Of a stretch of 64,000 nt of DNA, positions 2,813-40,277 are shown piece by piece. The position numbers and the translations under genes are program-made. The stretch comes from Vagococcus fluvialis bH819 (GTDB lineage Bacteria; Bacillota; Bacilli; Lactobacillales; Vagococcaceae): assembly GCF_900163795.1 (NCBI RefSeq), contig NZ_FWFD01000009.1:124001-188000 (forward strand), read 5' to 3'. Position 1 is the first letter of the stretch. Each line of letters begins with the position of its first letter. The notes below the pieces were generated by a model that saw only the letters and a program-made list of their open reading frames with translations, did not search any database and was not told the DNA's origin.

Positions 2813-3817
2813 TTATTGTCCTCCTTTAATAATAGCTTTATCTAAAATACTATCTGGAATTGTGATATTTAATAATTGAGCTTGTTTCTTATTCACAACT
2901 GTATCACCTGTATCAAAAGTATAAATAGGTGTATCTTTAGGTTCTTTATTTCCTTTCAAAATATCAACAACCATCTTGCCTGTCTGAACGCCTAATTGAT
3001 GTTGGTTTATACCAACCGTTGCCAATCCACCTTGTTCAACCATTGTATCAACAGAAGGGATAATCGGAATCTTATATTGATTTCCTACATCAACAATTGT
3101 TTGCATGGCATTAGCCATTGTATTATCTGTTGGCAGATAGATAAAGTCGATTTCTTTTGCCATAACTTGCATCATTTGTGGGATCTCATTTGTAGAAGGG
3201 ACTGCATATTTTTTGACATCATACCCTTCTTTTGTGGCAATTTCTGATATTTTATCTACTTGATAAGCTGAGTTATCTTCTGCAGATGAATACAAAACAC
3301 CCATTTTTTTCTTCTCTGGTAAAACCTGATGAACTAAATCTAATTGGGCTTTAATAGGTGATTGATCGCTAACACCTGTAATATTTCCTCCTGGTTTATC
3401 ATTATCTAAGACTAATCCAGCACTTTCAGGATCACTAATTGCTCCTAATACAATGGGAATATCCTTAGTTTGATTAGCGAGTGCCTGTGCAGCTGGTGTA
3501 GCTATTCCTACAAGGACATCTGACTTTTCATTTAACAAATGTTGGCTCATGCTTGTTAACTTACTTTGATCTGCTTGTCCATTTTGGAAAACGATTTTCA
3601 CCGTTTTTCCATCTTCGTATCCTTGTTCTCTCAATTCGTCAATTAAGCCTTGATAAATTTGATCCAATGCCGGATGACTTACAAATTGCAGGATTCCCAC
3701 TACCGGAATATCTGATTTTTTATTCTCAGATTTTAATTTTTGACTATCCATAATAAAGCTAGATATTAAGAAACTGAATAATAAGATAAGTGTGATGTTT
3801 AATTTTTTATTTTTCAT
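2813..3817 (-). CDS. trpX: ABC transporter substrate-binding protein, TrpX-type (putative tryptophan binding)
   Basis: A 334-residue extracellular solute-binding protein of the ABC_sub_bind family (PF04392). The mature domain opens with PVVGILQFVSHPALDQIYQG, and later segments PIVLGAISDPESAG and IPIIPSVDTMVEQGG are family hallmarks. The N-terminal hydrophobic segment (residues 8-22) has no lipobox cysteine, so the protein is probably held by an uncleaved signal anchor or released rather than lipidated. AGGAGG lies ten bases before the ATG. The operon begins about 290 bases upstream with a promoter, leader peptide and two terminators, so expression is probably set by tryptophan supply. Confidence 0.86.
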   Translation of the reverse strand: MKNKKLNITLILLFSFLISSFIMDSQKLKSENKKSDIPVVGILQFVSHPALDQIYQGLIDELREQGYEDGKTVKIVFQNGQADQSKLTSMSQHLLNEKSDVLVGIATPAAQALANQTKDIPIVLGAISDPESAGLVLDNDKPGGNITGVSDQSPIKAQLDLVHQVLPEKKKMGVLYSSAEDNSAYQVDKISEIATKEGYDVKKYAVPSTNEIPQMMQVMAKEIDFIYLPTDNTMANAMQTIVDVGNQYKIPIIPSVDTMVEQGGLATVGINQHQLGVQTGKMVVDILKGNKEPKDTPIYTFDTGDTVVNKKQAQLLNITIPDSILDKAIIKGGQ

Positions 3818-3840
3818 TTTTATATTTCCTCCTTTAGAAT

Positions 3841-3876
3841 AAAAAAAGAGCGATAACCTATTATTGGTTATCGCTC
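3841..3876 (-). terminator. Attenuator terminator 2 (trp leader)
   Basis: An 11-bp perfect stem GAGCGATAACC / GGTTATCGCTC with a 7-base loop and seven T, only 15 bases before the binding-protein ribosome binding site. A CTATTAT segment just upstream (3880-3893 region) can pair with ATAATAG in its loop and right arm, a possible weak antiterminator. Confidence 0.88.
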
Positions 3877-3889
3877 ATCTATCATAATA

Positions 3890-3920
3890 GACAAAACAAA
3901 AACCGCATAATCTATGCGGT
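3890..3920 (-). terminator. Attenuator terminator 1 (trp leader)
   Basis: An 8-bp stem ACCGCATA / TATGCGGT with a 3-base loop, followed by TTTTGTTTTG on the minus strand. Its left arm and loop overlap the proposed antiterminator segment. Confidence 0.75.
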
Positions 3921-4008
3921 ATAATTCATCTTTACCCAACATAGATACATATTTTTAGAATAATTTCTAAAAAGCTGTACCCACGCCAAATGATTAGCCT
4001 AAATACAA

Positions 4009-4080
4009 CTATCTACGCCAAGTTTGCCATGAAAAGCTATTCAATTTAAAATCTGAAAATTTATTTGTTATTTGTTCCAT
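4009..4080 (-). CDS. Trp-containing leader peptide of the trpXYZ-type operon
   Basis: A 23-codon frame, preceded by an AGAGGG ribosome binding site seven bases before the ATG and by a good promoter. It ends SFSWQTWRR then TAG, with Trp codons at positions 18 and 21, close to the stop. No tryptophan occurs earlier. Two terminators follow before the binding-protein gene. Short peptides with codons for the regulated amino acid close to the stop are the hallmark of ribosome-mediated attenuation, so this is read as a sensor of charged tRNA-Trp. The translation is seen directly; the role is inferred from position and RNA pairing. Confidence 0.78.
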   Translation of the reverse strand: MEQITNKFSDFKLNSFSWQTWRR

Positions 4081-4112
4081 GACAATCCCTCTTTCGTTAA
4101 AATAATAAACAT

Positions 4113-4141
4113 ATCTTACCCATAAAAAATATAAAAGTCAA
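4113..4141 (-). promoter_or_regulatory. Promoter of the trpXYZ-type operon
   Basis: On the minus strand a TTGACT -35 box and a TAAGAT -10 box are separated by exactly 17 bases. Transcription would begin about 25 bases before the leader-peptide ATG. The -35 box lies only a few bases after the stop of the upstream unknown gene. Confidence 0.82.
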
Positions 4142-4148
4142 TATATAA

Positions 4149-4781
4149 TTACTCAAATTCAACTTCAGATGTGTGTGTGCCATCGCTAGGATTAGGATTA
4201 AAATCAAGCTCATCTTTCTTTTCAACACGCTTTGGTTTTTTTTGCGGAATTTTAGGATTAATCATTAAGTTTACTTCATCAACTAATTCTGAAGCACCAT
4301 TTTTTAATGTATCAAATGCATATCGTTTTGATTCTTTTCCATTTTCAATCAACAAAAAATTATTTTTTTTGTCTAATTTTAAATTATCAACGCTTTTTTG
4401 ATTACCATAAATCGGTTGATAAATATACACTATTTCTGGAAGTCCTTCGATTGATTTTGCTTCATTAAACATTTTTTCAAGTTCATCGTAACCTTTATTG
4501 TTGGTAGGATTAATAATTCCTAAAACAACAGGTTCTTTACTCGATAGTATTGTATTGATATCAGCGTTTTTAACATTTTTAAATTGTTTGTTTTTAAATG
4601 TGACTTTCGCTACTGACTCTATCTGTCTTTCTCTTATCGTTTCTCTGTATGCCGAAACAAATAAATGACTAATAATAAAAAAAGCTATGACTACAACTAT
4701 TATCGCTATCGTTTTTTTCTTTTTTAATACGGTTAATAATTGTCCCGCTAATCCCTCATTATTCGTAGTCTTTACCTTCAT
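4149..4781 (-). CDS. Membrane-anchored protein of unknown function, possible thioredoxin-like fold without cysteines
   Basis: A 210-residue protein not recognised by name. A short Lys-rich cytoplasmic stretch is followed by one transmembrane helix (about residues 23-45) and a 160-residue extracellular part. The order of strands and helices (VVLGIINP, a helix LEKMFNEA, then IVYIYQP, NNFLLIENGK and a final helix) resembles a thioredoxin-like fold, but there is no CXXC motif and no cysteine at all. The C-terminal tail is rich in Lys, Pro, Asp and Glu. AAGGTGG precedes the ATG. It is divergent from mapZ, and its stop lies immediately before the trp promoter. Confidence 0.7.
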   Translation of the reverse strand: MKVKTTNNEGLAGQLLTVLKKKKTIAIIVVVIAFFIISHLFVSAYRETIRERQIESVAKVTFKNKQFKNVKNADINTILSSKEPVVLGIINPTNNKGYDELEKMFNEAKSIEGLPEIVYIYQPIYGNQKSVDNLKLDKKNNFLLIENGKESKRYAFDTLKNGASELVDEVNLMINPKIPQKKPKRVEKKDELDFNPNPSDGTHTSEVEFE

Positions 4782-4967
4782 TGAATAACCACCTTATTTT
4801 GTTAATAGTCCTATTATAACTTATAATTTTAAGATTGAGAATACCAAGTATCATAAAAACAGTAACTGATCTTGTTAGATATTTAGTTTTCACTATATTT
4901 TTAACTCATAATGGTATATAATAGTTTAATTGAAAAGCTATTTTTAAAGATTAGGAGAGACATTATT

Positions 4968-6569
4968 TTGACAAATGAAATTAAGAAATGCCCTAATTGT
5001 GGTCATCAATTCAAATCTGGAGAAGAGTATTGTCCAAACTGTGACCTTTTTATTCCGATGAATGAACAAAATGAAAATGACGCAACTTTTGACCCTGAAA
5101 AAACACAAACATTTAAAACGTTCAAAGAAACTGAAAATAAGTCTGATGAAAATTTCAGCGAGCCCACGTTTAAGCATCGTGGAAAAACATCAGTAGATAA
5201 CACTTCAGATACTATTGAAGAAGCTGAAACAATCAGCAACCAATCAGAAGAAAAAAAAGAGCCTGAAACAGAGAAAAACCAACCTATTTCTAACGAAAAT
5301 ATCTCTTCTGAAGATACAACTGAGATCGAAGAAACTTTTATTGATAAAGAAGAATCATTAGATATCCATTCTGAAGATCCGTTAGAAGTAAATAATGAAC
5401 CCATCAATGAAATTGAAGTGGTAGTCAGTGATGATAAAGAATCTGTTGAGGTTAAATCTAATAAAGAACAACCTTCTTCTAATAAAAAGAAAACTAAAGC
5501 AATTATTGGATTGTCTGCTACAGTTGTCCTTATCGTAGGAGGCTTAACTTTCTACTCTACACAACAAAAAAAGAATGAAGAAAAAGCGACAACTGAACTT
5601 GTTTCAACGACAGAATTAAATCTTAATTCTCTATATAGTTCGTCTGAACATATCTACCTAAAAAAGAATGTGACACAAGATGACATCAAAAAAGCAAAAG
5701 AATCTTTAGAAAAACTAAAGGGCAAAGAGGATTATGCGGACTTAAAAAAAGAATTCGATACTGTTGAAGAAAAGTTTAATAAGCAAAATGCGATCAACGA
5801 AGTTTTCAAAAAGCCTATTATTGATTCGGATCAATTGGATACAAAAGTTTATGTAAAAAATGCAGATAAACTATCGATGAATAAAATTGCAACTGAAAAA
5901 GATGGCTTTGATATTCTTTATAATAAAGCATTTTCTGAAGCAGAAGAGCAAAAATCTTCATTAACAAAAGCAAATGATAGTTTGTCTATTGTTTATAAAG
6001 AAGATCAAGTGGTCAAAGAAGCTTCAAAAGAGCAATATGATGACGCTGAAAAAGCGATTAAAGCTATCAAAGACCCAGGAGTTAAAAAAGAATTTTCTGA
6101 AAAACTTGATAAAGTAAAAGCTTTCCTAGATGAAAAAGAAAAAGAGAAACAAGCTGAAGCTGAGGCTTTTGCTGCTGAACAAGCAAAAATAGCTCAACAA
6201 GAGCAACAAATTCAAGCAAACCCAAATAACAATAATAACAACAACTCTAGTGGTACGTTTAAAGCAACAGACCCTAATTATAAATGGGGAAATCGTAAAG
6301 ACGGTAATATCAATAATAATGATGATGCTTGGGCTTGGAACCCTGGAATTCAAGAAAAAGTTATTTCCGAAGTTATTAGCCGAGGCTACGTAGCTGAAGG
6401 TGGCTATTATCTTGAACCTGTTTACATTGAAAATGGTGAAGGTTTCTATAACTTATACGCCACTACAAATTCAAAAATATTCCCGAAAAGTAAAGCAGAA
6501 GAATTTCCACTTTATGTCGTAACAATCAATGCTAAGACTGGTTGGTTCAAAGGTAACGGACCAAACTAA
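4968..6569 (+). CDS. mapZ: MapZ-family cell division site-positioning protein with N-terminal zinc ribbon
   Basis: Start chosen at TTG 4968, eight bases after TTAGGAGAG; the upstream in-frame ATG at 4911 has no ribosome binding site and overlaps a TATAAT box. The 533-residue protein has a zinc ribbon near the start (CPNCGHQF, then CPNCD), a long acidic cytoplasmic stretch, one transmembrane helix (about residues 178-196) and an extracellular region: a helical domain, a coiled Lys/Glu/Gln stretch, an Asn-rich linker and a C-terminal domain with DDAWAWNPGIQEKVI and VTINAKTGWFKGN. These match the two extracellular domains of MapZ, which marks the division site and positions FtsZ in streptococci and enterococci. 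A terminator follows. Confidence 0.85.
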   Translation: MTNEIKKCPNCGHQFKSGEEYCPNCDLFIPMNEQNENDATFDPEKTQTFKTFKETENKSDENFSEPTFKHRGKTSVDNTSDTIEEAETISNQSEEKKEPETEKNQPISNENISSEDTTEIEETFIDKEESLDIHSEDPLEVNNEPINEIEVVVSDDKESVEVKSNKEQPSSNKKKTKAIIGLSATVVLIVGGLTFYSTQQKKNEEKATTELVSTTELNLNSLYSSSEHIYLKKNVTQDDIKKAKESLEKLKGKEDYADLKKEFDTVEEKFNKQNAINEVFKKPIIDSDQLDTKVYVKNADKLSMNKIATEKDGFDILYNKAFSEAEEQKSSLTKANDSLSIVYKEDQVVKEASKEQYDDAEKAIKAIKDPGVKKEFSEKLDKVKAFLDEKEKEKQAEAEAFAAEQAKIAQQEQQIQANPNNNNNNNSSGTFKATDPNYKWGNRKDGNINNNDDAWAWNPGIQEKVISEVISRGYVAEGGYYLEPVYIENGEGFYNLYATTNSKIFPKSKAEEFPLYVVTINAKTGWFKGNGPN

Positions 6570-34135: not shown

Positions 34136-34156
34136 TCTTATCTTCTCCTTTTGTAT

Positions 34157-34275
34157 AAAAAAAGCCTCGTATCTAAATTAGAAACGAGGCGTACGAAAAC
34201 AGACATCGACAATAAAAGAATAGATTTATCCCTATATAGCTATCTGCTTCGCTTTTCCTAGTCTCTCTGGACTTG
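34157..34275 (-). promoter_or_regulatory. PyrR-binding attenuator between pyrR and pyrP
   Basis: The minus strand carries the PyrR anti-antiterminator loop sequence AGTCCAGAGAGACT (34260-34273). About 70 bases further on is a terminator with GCCTCGT and ACGAGGC arms extended by inner pairs, and seven T (34157-34190). The arrangement matches the known PyrR mechanism, in which PyrR with UMP stabilises the binding loop and lets the terminator form. Confidence 0.92.
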
Positions 34276-34285
34276 ATTAAAAAGC

Positions 34286-34825
<540 letters not shown>

Positions 34826-34851
34826 TTAGCTTCCTCCTAAAAAAATCCAAT

Positions 34852-34990
34852 AAAAAAACTCTTATCCGTGAAAGAATAAGAGGGAATTTGTCTACTTAAA
34901 TTAATTAACCCACTTCAAGGTACAACATACCCTAGTATTGGTTAACTTAATTCCTTCTTAGCCTCTCTGGACTACTCTTAAAGGACTTCT
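34852..34990 (-). promoter_or_regulatory. PyrR-binding attenuator in the pyrR leader
   Basis: The minus strand carries the canonical PyrR loop AGTCCAGAGAGGC (34961-34973), followed by the antiterminator region and a terminator with arms CTCTTAT / ATAAGAG and seven T (34852-34882), shortly before the pyrR ribosome binding site. This is the operon-proximal copy of the attenuator seen again before pyrP. Confidence 0.93.
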
Positions 34991-40132: not shown

Positions 40133-40252
40133 CACAAAAAAGCCTGAGAAATAAAAATCTCCCAGGCTTTTATCCTTCCGTGTACGTAGGATTGATTACC
40201 TACGGGCTTACTCTCGGTCCAGACTAATCAAATGATTACGGAACCCTAGTAA
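40133..40252 (-). promoter_or_regulatory. Guanidine-I (ykkC) riboswitch with terminator
   Basis: The minus strand holds the conserved motifs of the guanidine-I class in order: CTAGGGTTCCG, then TCTGGACCGAGAG, then ACACGGAAGGATAAAAGCC, followed by GGGAGA. The final GCC and GGGAGA segments also form a terminator with AGCCTGGGAGA against TCTCAGGCT and six T (40135-40168). Free guanidinium is known to stabilise the aptamer and prevent termination. Aptamer and exporter type agree. Confidence 0.93.
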
Positions 40253-40277
40253 GTACTTTTACTATTAGTATCATTAG

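Follow-up and report, generated by a model that had tools for sequence, protein, structure and literature searches.

The window, i.e. the whole 64,000-nucleotide stretch of Vagococcus fluvialis DNA analysed here, contains a trpXYZ operon on its minus strand, and the question raised by this locus is how the leader ahead of trpX controls it. The textbook mechanisms for aromatic amino-acid genes in Lactobacillales-type bacteria are T-boxes and TRAP, and ribosome-mediated attenuation is a long-known principle. An earlier note on this DNA had proposed a Trp leader-peptide attenuator before a TrpXYZ-type transporter, and this is still the best reading: TrpX scores over its family cut-off, the leader ending WQxWRR with its stop codon is found in 14 of 14 genomes of the genus and no T-box match is found at the locus. 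Judging from sequence comparison and folding, we consider it about 90% probable that the trpX leader is a ribosome-mediated transcription attenuator which senses charged tRNA-Trp.

A T-box as the regulator of the trpX locus was rejected for lack of a match to RF00230: cmscan finds none at 3800–4200 even at E-values up to 5, and none is over the gathering cut-off anywhere in the window. Elsewhere in the window's genome there are 19 T-box matches, 11 of which are over the cut-off. Tandem T-boxes (L021 and L024) are found at G000:C14:186172-186688 of the same genome.

The trpXYZ leader of the window

The leader interval lies between a hypothetical gene that ends at 4149 and trpX (3817). On the minus strand, to which all leader coordinates refer, positions 4141–3841 contain a promoter, a Shine–Dalgarno (SD) sequence, a 23-codon ORF and two terminators, all ahead of trpXYZ. 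The promoter (TTGACT-17-TAAGAT, 4141–4113), already named in the earlier note, is among eight promoter-like sites found at 3700–4300 (3.8 in shuffles), so the scan alone is no proof of it and conservation weighs more: TTGAC and a loose -10 box (T[AT]NNNT) at like spacing are present in 14 of 14 genus genomes. The SD sequence of the leader peptide, GAGGGA (4091–4086), was read from the sequence. The peptide itself, MEQITNKFSDFKLNSFSWQTWRR*, is encoded at 4080–4009, based on ORF reading, comparison of loci and conservation in the genus; as had been claimed, its 23 codons include Trp codons at 18 (4029–4027) and 21 (4020–4018).

Segment 1 (4023–4010) is the 3′ end of the leader ORF and its partner is segment 3 (3947–3934), according to folding, partner swaps and covariation. 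Segment 1b (4009–4000) sits at and after the stop codon and has segment 2 (3983–3974) as its partner, based on folding, swaps, masked folding and covariation. Segment 2 (about 3987–3974) corresponds to the left arm of P1 in the Rfam trpB motif, as seen from the Rfam alignment, swaps, masked folding and covariation. Segments 2 and 3 lie on either side of a small apical hairpin found by folding (3973–3952). Segment 3 (3949–3934) is the putative antiterminator strand, for which folding, swaps, masked folding and covariation identify segments 1, 2 and 4 as competitors; these three are near-copies of one sequence and all rivals for segment 3. The terminator scan places terminator 1 at 3920–3902 (segment 4, 3920–3910; segment 5, 3909–3902), with a U-rich tail at 3901–3892. 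Terminator 2 (3876–3848; U-tract, 3847–3841) was identified by the same scan and by the partner-swap test. The relay strand (3904–3894) comprises GGUU (3904–3901) and UUGUUU (3899–3894); its partner, based on the partner-swap test and folding, is the 5′ arm of terminator 2 (GAGCGAUAACC, 3876–3866), which the swap test identifies as the relay target. Two terminators compare with a mean of 0.4 in shuffles of 3700–4300, and the 270-nt leader folds with a z-score of −8.2, 0 of 200 shuffles being equally good. Both pairings listed in the earlier note (4017–4010 with 3947–3940, and 3946–3940 with 3916–3910) are present, as are its tandem terminators, whereas segment 1b, segment 2 and the pairing of the 3′ side of terminator 1 (3904–3894) with the 5′ arm of terminator 2 (3876–3866) had been overlooked.

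Concerning the operon, trpX (3817–2813, minus strand) encodes a tryptophan ABC transporter substrate-binding protein (NF041285, 467.5 bits against a cut-off of 390; PF04392). The ABC permease gene trpY (2811–1936, minus strand) has only weak matches to sugar-type permeases and is named by position and resemblance; trpZ (1939–1193, minus strand), an ABC ATPase gene with generic ATPase matches, is named by position. TrpB is absent from the window's genome at the family cut-off (best score 29.8 bits vs 392), and import is therefore probably the main source of tryptophan. Upstream of the leader, 4781–4149 (minus strand) encodes a protein without an NCBIfam match that has, by eye, a hydrophobic N-terminal stretch. 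The protein of the divergent gene at 4911–6569 (plus strand), also judged by eye, starts with a zinc-ribbon-like CPNCG and contains a single hydrophobic stretch. The window also contains a Guanidine-I riboswitch (40157–40260) and two PyrR binding sites (34850–34988 and 34155–34288), all on the minus strand and over the Rfam cut-offs.

Leader peptides and the RF04312 motif

A trpX match is found in 14 of 14 genomes of Vagococcus. The SD-led leaders of these genomes end in WQTWRR (11 genomes), WQAWRR, WQIWRR or WQPWRR (one genome each), and that of the window ends in SWQTWRR. At the locus, cmscan gives one relevant weak match, to RF04312 ('trpB ncRNA motif'): it spans the full length of the model (1–107) and scores 40.4 bits, below the gathering cut-off of 59 bits. 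The trpX leaders of some congeners are over this cut-off (G006, 62.8; G012, 62.9; G008, 62.6 bits). The window leader has the RF04312 architecture of a P1 hairpin and an intrinsic terminator, with the antiterminator in the right side of P1.

RF04312 matches are found in 160 of 295 genomes of the window's order at E 0.001, with 52 over the cut-off. Our set of 138 loci consists of the top scores among the matches listed for these genomes and the loci of the genus; a few matches at contig ends or overlapping genus loci were left out. The leader of each locus is the ORF with the best SD sequence, chosen blind to Trp. An SD-led ATG ORF is present in 136 of the 138 loci, with at least one Trp codon in 133 and at least two in 88, so the Trp codons noted earlier are kept in relatives as they are in 14 of 14 genus genomes. 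One locus (L137, G009:C1:1950945), whose picked ORF lacks Trp and which by eye adjoins a tRNA-like sequence, is counted as a miss in the 133 of 138 and was dropped from the remaining tests. A leader ORF is then found in 135 of 137 loci (14.0 in dinucleotide shuffles), and Trp lies within the last nine leader residues in 130 of 137 (1.6 in shuffles, at most 4). The C-terminal variants are WNSWRR, WRNWRR, WQSR, WQSH and WQGQ. The locus thus combines a short, predicted-translated ORF, a ribosome-binding site and codons of the regulated amino acid with mutually exclusive antiterminator and terminator structures 3′ of the ORF, the covariation of 3:4 being weak.

Looking at the DNA pattern for WxxWRR, at least 118 stretches were found in the genomes scanned, 80 of them listed by name. 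An SD-led short ORF accompanies 43 of the 118 and about 39 were judged real, including leaders of Enterococcus, Vagococcus, Gemella, Ruoffia and Streptococcus hyovaginalis; the remaining stretches look like chance matches. Phylum-wide, RF04312 has matches in 5 of 398 genomes: one outside the window's order (L170) looks real, and L171 and L173 are apparent chance matches to terminators. The leader of the top-scoring RF04312 match (L040, G072:C1:26859) ends in SWQSR and is followed by an apparent group II intron with a maturase (by resemblance) and by no amino-acid gene. Two Trp leaders (L043 and L069) have no long ORF starting within the downstream reach searched, where their close relative L047 has trpB; they are possibly orphan leaders left after the loss of trpB.

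Apparent exchange of the sensing codons

Two of the 138 RF04312 loci have Tyr/Phe codons in place of Trp: L165 precedes aroE and L145 a TrpX paralogue under the TrpX cut-off (319 vs 390). In the order, 158 of 395 genomes contain the codon pattern for YFSYFR (reversed pattern, 26). Among 30 Tyr/Phe pattern loci, 27 resemble leaders, and 23 of these have an SD sequence of at least four letters; L207, L218 and L219 are chance matches to the pattern. The downstream genes encode TrpX paralogues, AroE, DAHP synthase, prephenate dehydratase (pheA) and transporters, representatives being named by family search and the rest by resemblance.

Tyr/Phe loci also match RF02863 ('sRNA_2410'), 15 of 16 at E 0.01 or better and 7 of 16 over the cut-off. 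Within Vagococcus, the family is found in 13 of 14 genomes, six over the cut-off. All 16 RF02863 loci of the genus have Phe/Tyr codons near the end of the leader (FYFSYYR, YYFSYFR); 13 are located before aroE-like genes and three before a TrpX paralogue. The window's genome has such a Tyr/Phe version, MNKNNIRLTSQLNNFYFSYYR, before an aroE-like gene (L355, G000:C11:242060-242211; RF02863, 45.0 bits against a cut-off of 61), and cmscan finds no RF02863 match at the trpX locus itself (3800–4200). The source of RF02863 is probably the 195-nt RNA of E. faecium filed by Sinel et al. (2017) as a stand-alone Enterococcus sRNA gene (PMC5593968), judging from name and length; the words 'leader' and 'attenuat-' are absent from the main text of that paper.

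In a second order, that of genome G651, RF04312 is matched in 23 of 117 genomes, none over the cut-off. All 38 loci have an SD-led leader, whose last nine residues are in every case free of Trp. Seven HHH leaders each precede hisS/hisZ-type genes, seven LLL leaders each precede one cluster of NSS transporters, four Phe leaders precede an ABC permease, two Tyr leaders precede BrnQ-type carriers and 17 Phe/Tyr leaders precede another NSS cluster; one leader has no readable gene. Codon class tracks the protein cluster. Of 179 within-cluster pairs, 99 share a class, whereas permutation gives 41.6 and none of 5000 permutations reaches the observed number. This count is inflated by close relatives and based on 37 of the 38 loci, as L388 has no long downstream ORF in reach. 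Two leaders unclassified in this test are Phe-type by eye (FFNNHFR). To judge from these comparisons, the window leader belongs to a shared scaffold, in which the sensing codons (Trp, Tyr/Phe, Phe, Leu or His) appear to change along with the controlled gene.

Competing segments and ribosome position

The pairing of each segment with its own and with swapped partners was compared in a set of 62 loci filtered to below 80% similarity, which includes two Tyr/Phe loci and was drawn from the 135 of 137 loci in which terminator 1 was found. Own partners gain 3.2 kcal/mol for 2:3 (above the swap median in 51 of 62 loci), 4.1 for 1b:2 (53 of 62), 3.2 for 1:3 (57 of 62) and 1.5 for 3:4 (45 of 62). In the same 62 loci the control pairings are null, both for 1 with 4 (P 0.59) and for 1b with 4 (P 0.07, in the opposite direction). 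In a MAFFT alignment of 60 loci, compensatory changes exceed those of all 300 column shuffles for 2:3, 1b:2, 1:3 and terminator 1, with 1b:2 understated because 1b lies inside the coding part in some genera. The covariation of 3:4 is not significant in these 60 loci, the observed double changes being reached by 28 and 17 of 300 shuffles. When one strand is slid by 1–3 columns, every helix drops from a share of paired cells of 0.77–0.95 to one of at most 0.55; double changes then reach up to 45 vs 48 for 1:3 slid by 3, though with far fewer pairs, and 3:4 slid by 3 has more of them (36 vs 22–23). Covariation in relatives, which the earlier note had put forward as a check, is thus seen for 1:3 and terminator 1, whereas the antiterminator 3:4 appears conserved rather than covarying.

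Ribosome position was modelled by masked folding, in which the nucleotides under the ribosome, with an assumed footprint, are barred from pairing. The mean probability of 3:4 in 60 loci is 0.34 with the ribosome at the last Trp codon, 0.32 at the first, 0.14 at the stop codon and 0.19 without a ribosome (last Trp vs stop, P 1e-9). The effect is moderate, the probability of 3:4 exceeding 0.5 in 35% of loci when the ribosome is stalled. For the window, the model predicts 1b:2 and 3:4 with a stalled ribosome and 2:3 with the ribosome at the stop codon; the probability of 3:4 in equilibrium folding is 0.87 and 0.32, respectively, and 0.80 in the untranslated leader. As this last value is already high, the rule that no translation means termination is not predicted here. 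The earlier note had also warned that a ribosome at the stop codon would mask segment 1. This concern is answered by segment 1b, which a ribosome at that place would also cover, so that segment 2 is freed for segment 3.

The second terminator

A second terminator is found at most 60 nt away in 52 of the 62 loci, and the other 10 have no acceptable tandem terminator. Four or more U were a condition for accepting a second terminator, and its U-count therefore reflects the selection; some calls of either terminator are weak or misplaced by eye (L095, L113, L116, L120 and L136), and terminator 1 is misplaced in L387 and L391 of the second order. In the 52 loci, the 3′ arm and tail of terminator 1 pair with the 5′ arm and loop of terminator 2 (T1R:T2L) at a mean of −12.3 kcal/mol, 4.5 better than swaps, and the own pairing is above the swap median in 50 of 52. 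The mirror control (T1L:T2R) gains only 0.8 (P 0.07; 52 loci). The value of T1R:T2L at the window locus is −9.0 kcal/mol. Keeping segment 4 unpaired raises the probability that a T2-left nucleotide has its partner in T1-right, from 0.21 to 0.57 overall and from 0.39 to 0.65 for the window, so a folded hairpin 1 lets terminator 2 fold and an unfolded one hinders it.

As the T1L:T2R control is not significant, duplication of terminator 1 was discarded as a complete explanation of terminator 2 for the window's order. In the order of G651, a tandem terminator 2 pairs with T1R in 27 of 38 loci (−14.3 vs −5.2 kcal/mol shuffled); T1L:T2R also reaches −10.7 there, terminator 2 resembles a copy of terminator 1, and it may be one in that order.

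Tyr/Phe loci of the window's order outside Vagococcus differ from those within the genus. In the former, the 6 nt that follow the first hairpin contain fewer than four U in 23 of 28 loci (L208 left out), or in 11 of 14 after removal of loci at least 80% alike, so that only terminator 2 looks able to terminate there. T1R:T2L of the 28 loci is −10.3, compared with −4.9 for shuffled T2L and −6.6 for T1L:T2R; the 28 contain near-duplicates, which inflates the P value of their test. Within Vagococcus, 13 of the 15 first hairpins measured have at least four U and only two lack a U-rich tail (L357 was not recognised). To judge by these tails, the relay looks obligatory only for part of the Tyr/Phe class, namely in the order outside Vagococcus.

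A real attenuator followed by an ordinary, unswitched back-up terminator is the alternative that survives best, although we hold it to be rather unlikely. Spare terminators are common to many operons, 13 of the 15 Tyr/Phe first hairpins of Vagococcus have a U-rich tail of their own, and in the order of G651 the second terminator resembles a copy of the first, all of which agrees with a simple back-up. A strong unswitched terminator would, however, block the operon. In 50 of 52 loci the own T1R:T2L pairing is better than swaps, and for T1L:T2R no significant difference from swaps is seen; the missing U-rich tail in 23 of 28 Tyr/Phe loci elsewhere in the order also argues against it. From the swap and folding tests it is likely that terminator 2 is relayed by the freed right arm of terminator 1. 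What the earlier note had said of two terminators therefore stands as regards their presence but not their independence, as terminator 2 is apparently switched by terminator 1.

Proposed mechanism

When tryptophan is low, the ribosome would stall at Trp-18 or Trp-21 and cover segment 1. Pairing of 1b with 2 would leave segment 3 free to pair with segment 4, the left arm of terminator 1, which would then fail; its right arm and U-rich tail would pair with the left arm of terminator 2, which would fail as well, and trpXYZ would be transcribed. When tryptophan is high, the ribosome at the stop codon would cover 1b and segment 2 would take segment 3; terminator 1 would fold with its right arm locked, and terminator 2 would be free to catch read-through. 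Comparison of loci supports the peptide, its Trp codons and the pairings 1:3, 1b:2, 2:3 and terminator 1 right arm with terminator 2 left arm; from these we infer the stalling, the direction of the response and termination itself.

The 2024 proposal of the trpB motif would instead make the leader a metabolite riboswitch, whose RNA would bind a ligand resembling an amino acid, the ORF upstream being incidental. This is the published class assignment (PMC11109978), and the strong covariation of P1 and terminator 1 agrees with it, but 136 of 138 loci have an SD-led leader and one constant scaffold carries different leader codons depending on the gene downstream; the source paper, in its available text, does not itself rule out a classic attenuator. 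Because nearly all loci read have a leader, and one whose codons are swapped, we regard a riboswitch as very improbable. Slightly less probable still is TnaC-like arrest, in which a conserved nascent peptide would stall the ribosome on free Trp: the C-terminal WQxWRR is strongly conserved in many genera, but the Tyr/Phe, Leu and His versions lack it, and this reading is disfavoured because the Gln and the last residues vary, following the pairing with segment 3.

Comparison with known systems

For the proposed attenuator sensing charged tRNA-Trp, the closest model is the trp attenuator of E. coli, in which a stalled ribosome on a leader peptide with Trp codons chooses between antiterminator and terminator. 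The Trp leader is shared, as this choice would be. Unlike in E. coli, there are more competing segments, with three near-copies (1, 2 and 4) vying for segment 3, the second terminator is apparently relayed, and one scaffold is reused for several amino acids. The sensing principle is thus known, while the scaffold family and the two-terminator logic are probably new. There is a good chance that a single Firmicutes scaffold constitutes a codon-exchangeable attenuator module, retargeted by its stall codons and with a domino switch of terminator 2, of which RF04312 and RF02863 are pieces.

Such a module would have several consequences. It would say concretely what the orphan trpB motif RNA senses, the reported Enterococcus sRNA family would become a terminated leader, and ribosome-mediated attenuation of aromatic amino-acid genes would spread widely into Lactobacillales-type bacteria. 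Leader codons would predict the cargo of uncharacterised transporters, i.e. Tyr/Phe for TrpX paralogues and Leu or Phe/Tyr for NSS transporters, and the relay would explain how one sensor governs two serial terminators.

The trpB motif was described by Narunsky et al. (2024), who regard it as a strong riboswitch candidate and count more than 900 representatives; it is located before trpB and amino-acid-type ABC transporters, and Fusobacteria are named among its carriers (PMC11109978). The window leader agrees with it in sequence, genomic place, P1, terminator and the antiterminator in the right side of P1; it differs in its leader peptide and second terminator, neither of which is described in the available text of that publication. 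Likewise, the Tyr/Phe loci match the model of RF02863, but what was filed as an sRNA (main text of PMC5593968) is here a terminated leader of aroE-type and transporter operons. Leader-peptide attenuators for His (PMC2965389, PMC9413887) and an attenuator peptide for Leu in S. aureus (PMC5794164) have been described in Firmicutes; these share leader peptides with regulatory codons and, in the accessible parts of these papers, are not linked to RF04312 or to a shared scaffold. In a literature search mainly of open-access papers, neither a leader peptide with Trp or Tyr/Phe codons for trpB motif RNA nor a terminator relay was found described.

Concerning the operon itself, trpXYZ of Streptococcus suis is reported to be under T-box control (PMC9382623). 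The operon, the signal (uncharged tRNA-Trp) and the use of transcription antitermination are alike, but the S. suis T-box, as described there, binds the tRNA directly, whereas the window locus has no T-box match. If the attenuator reading is true, the module would be the leader-peptide counterpart of the T-box.
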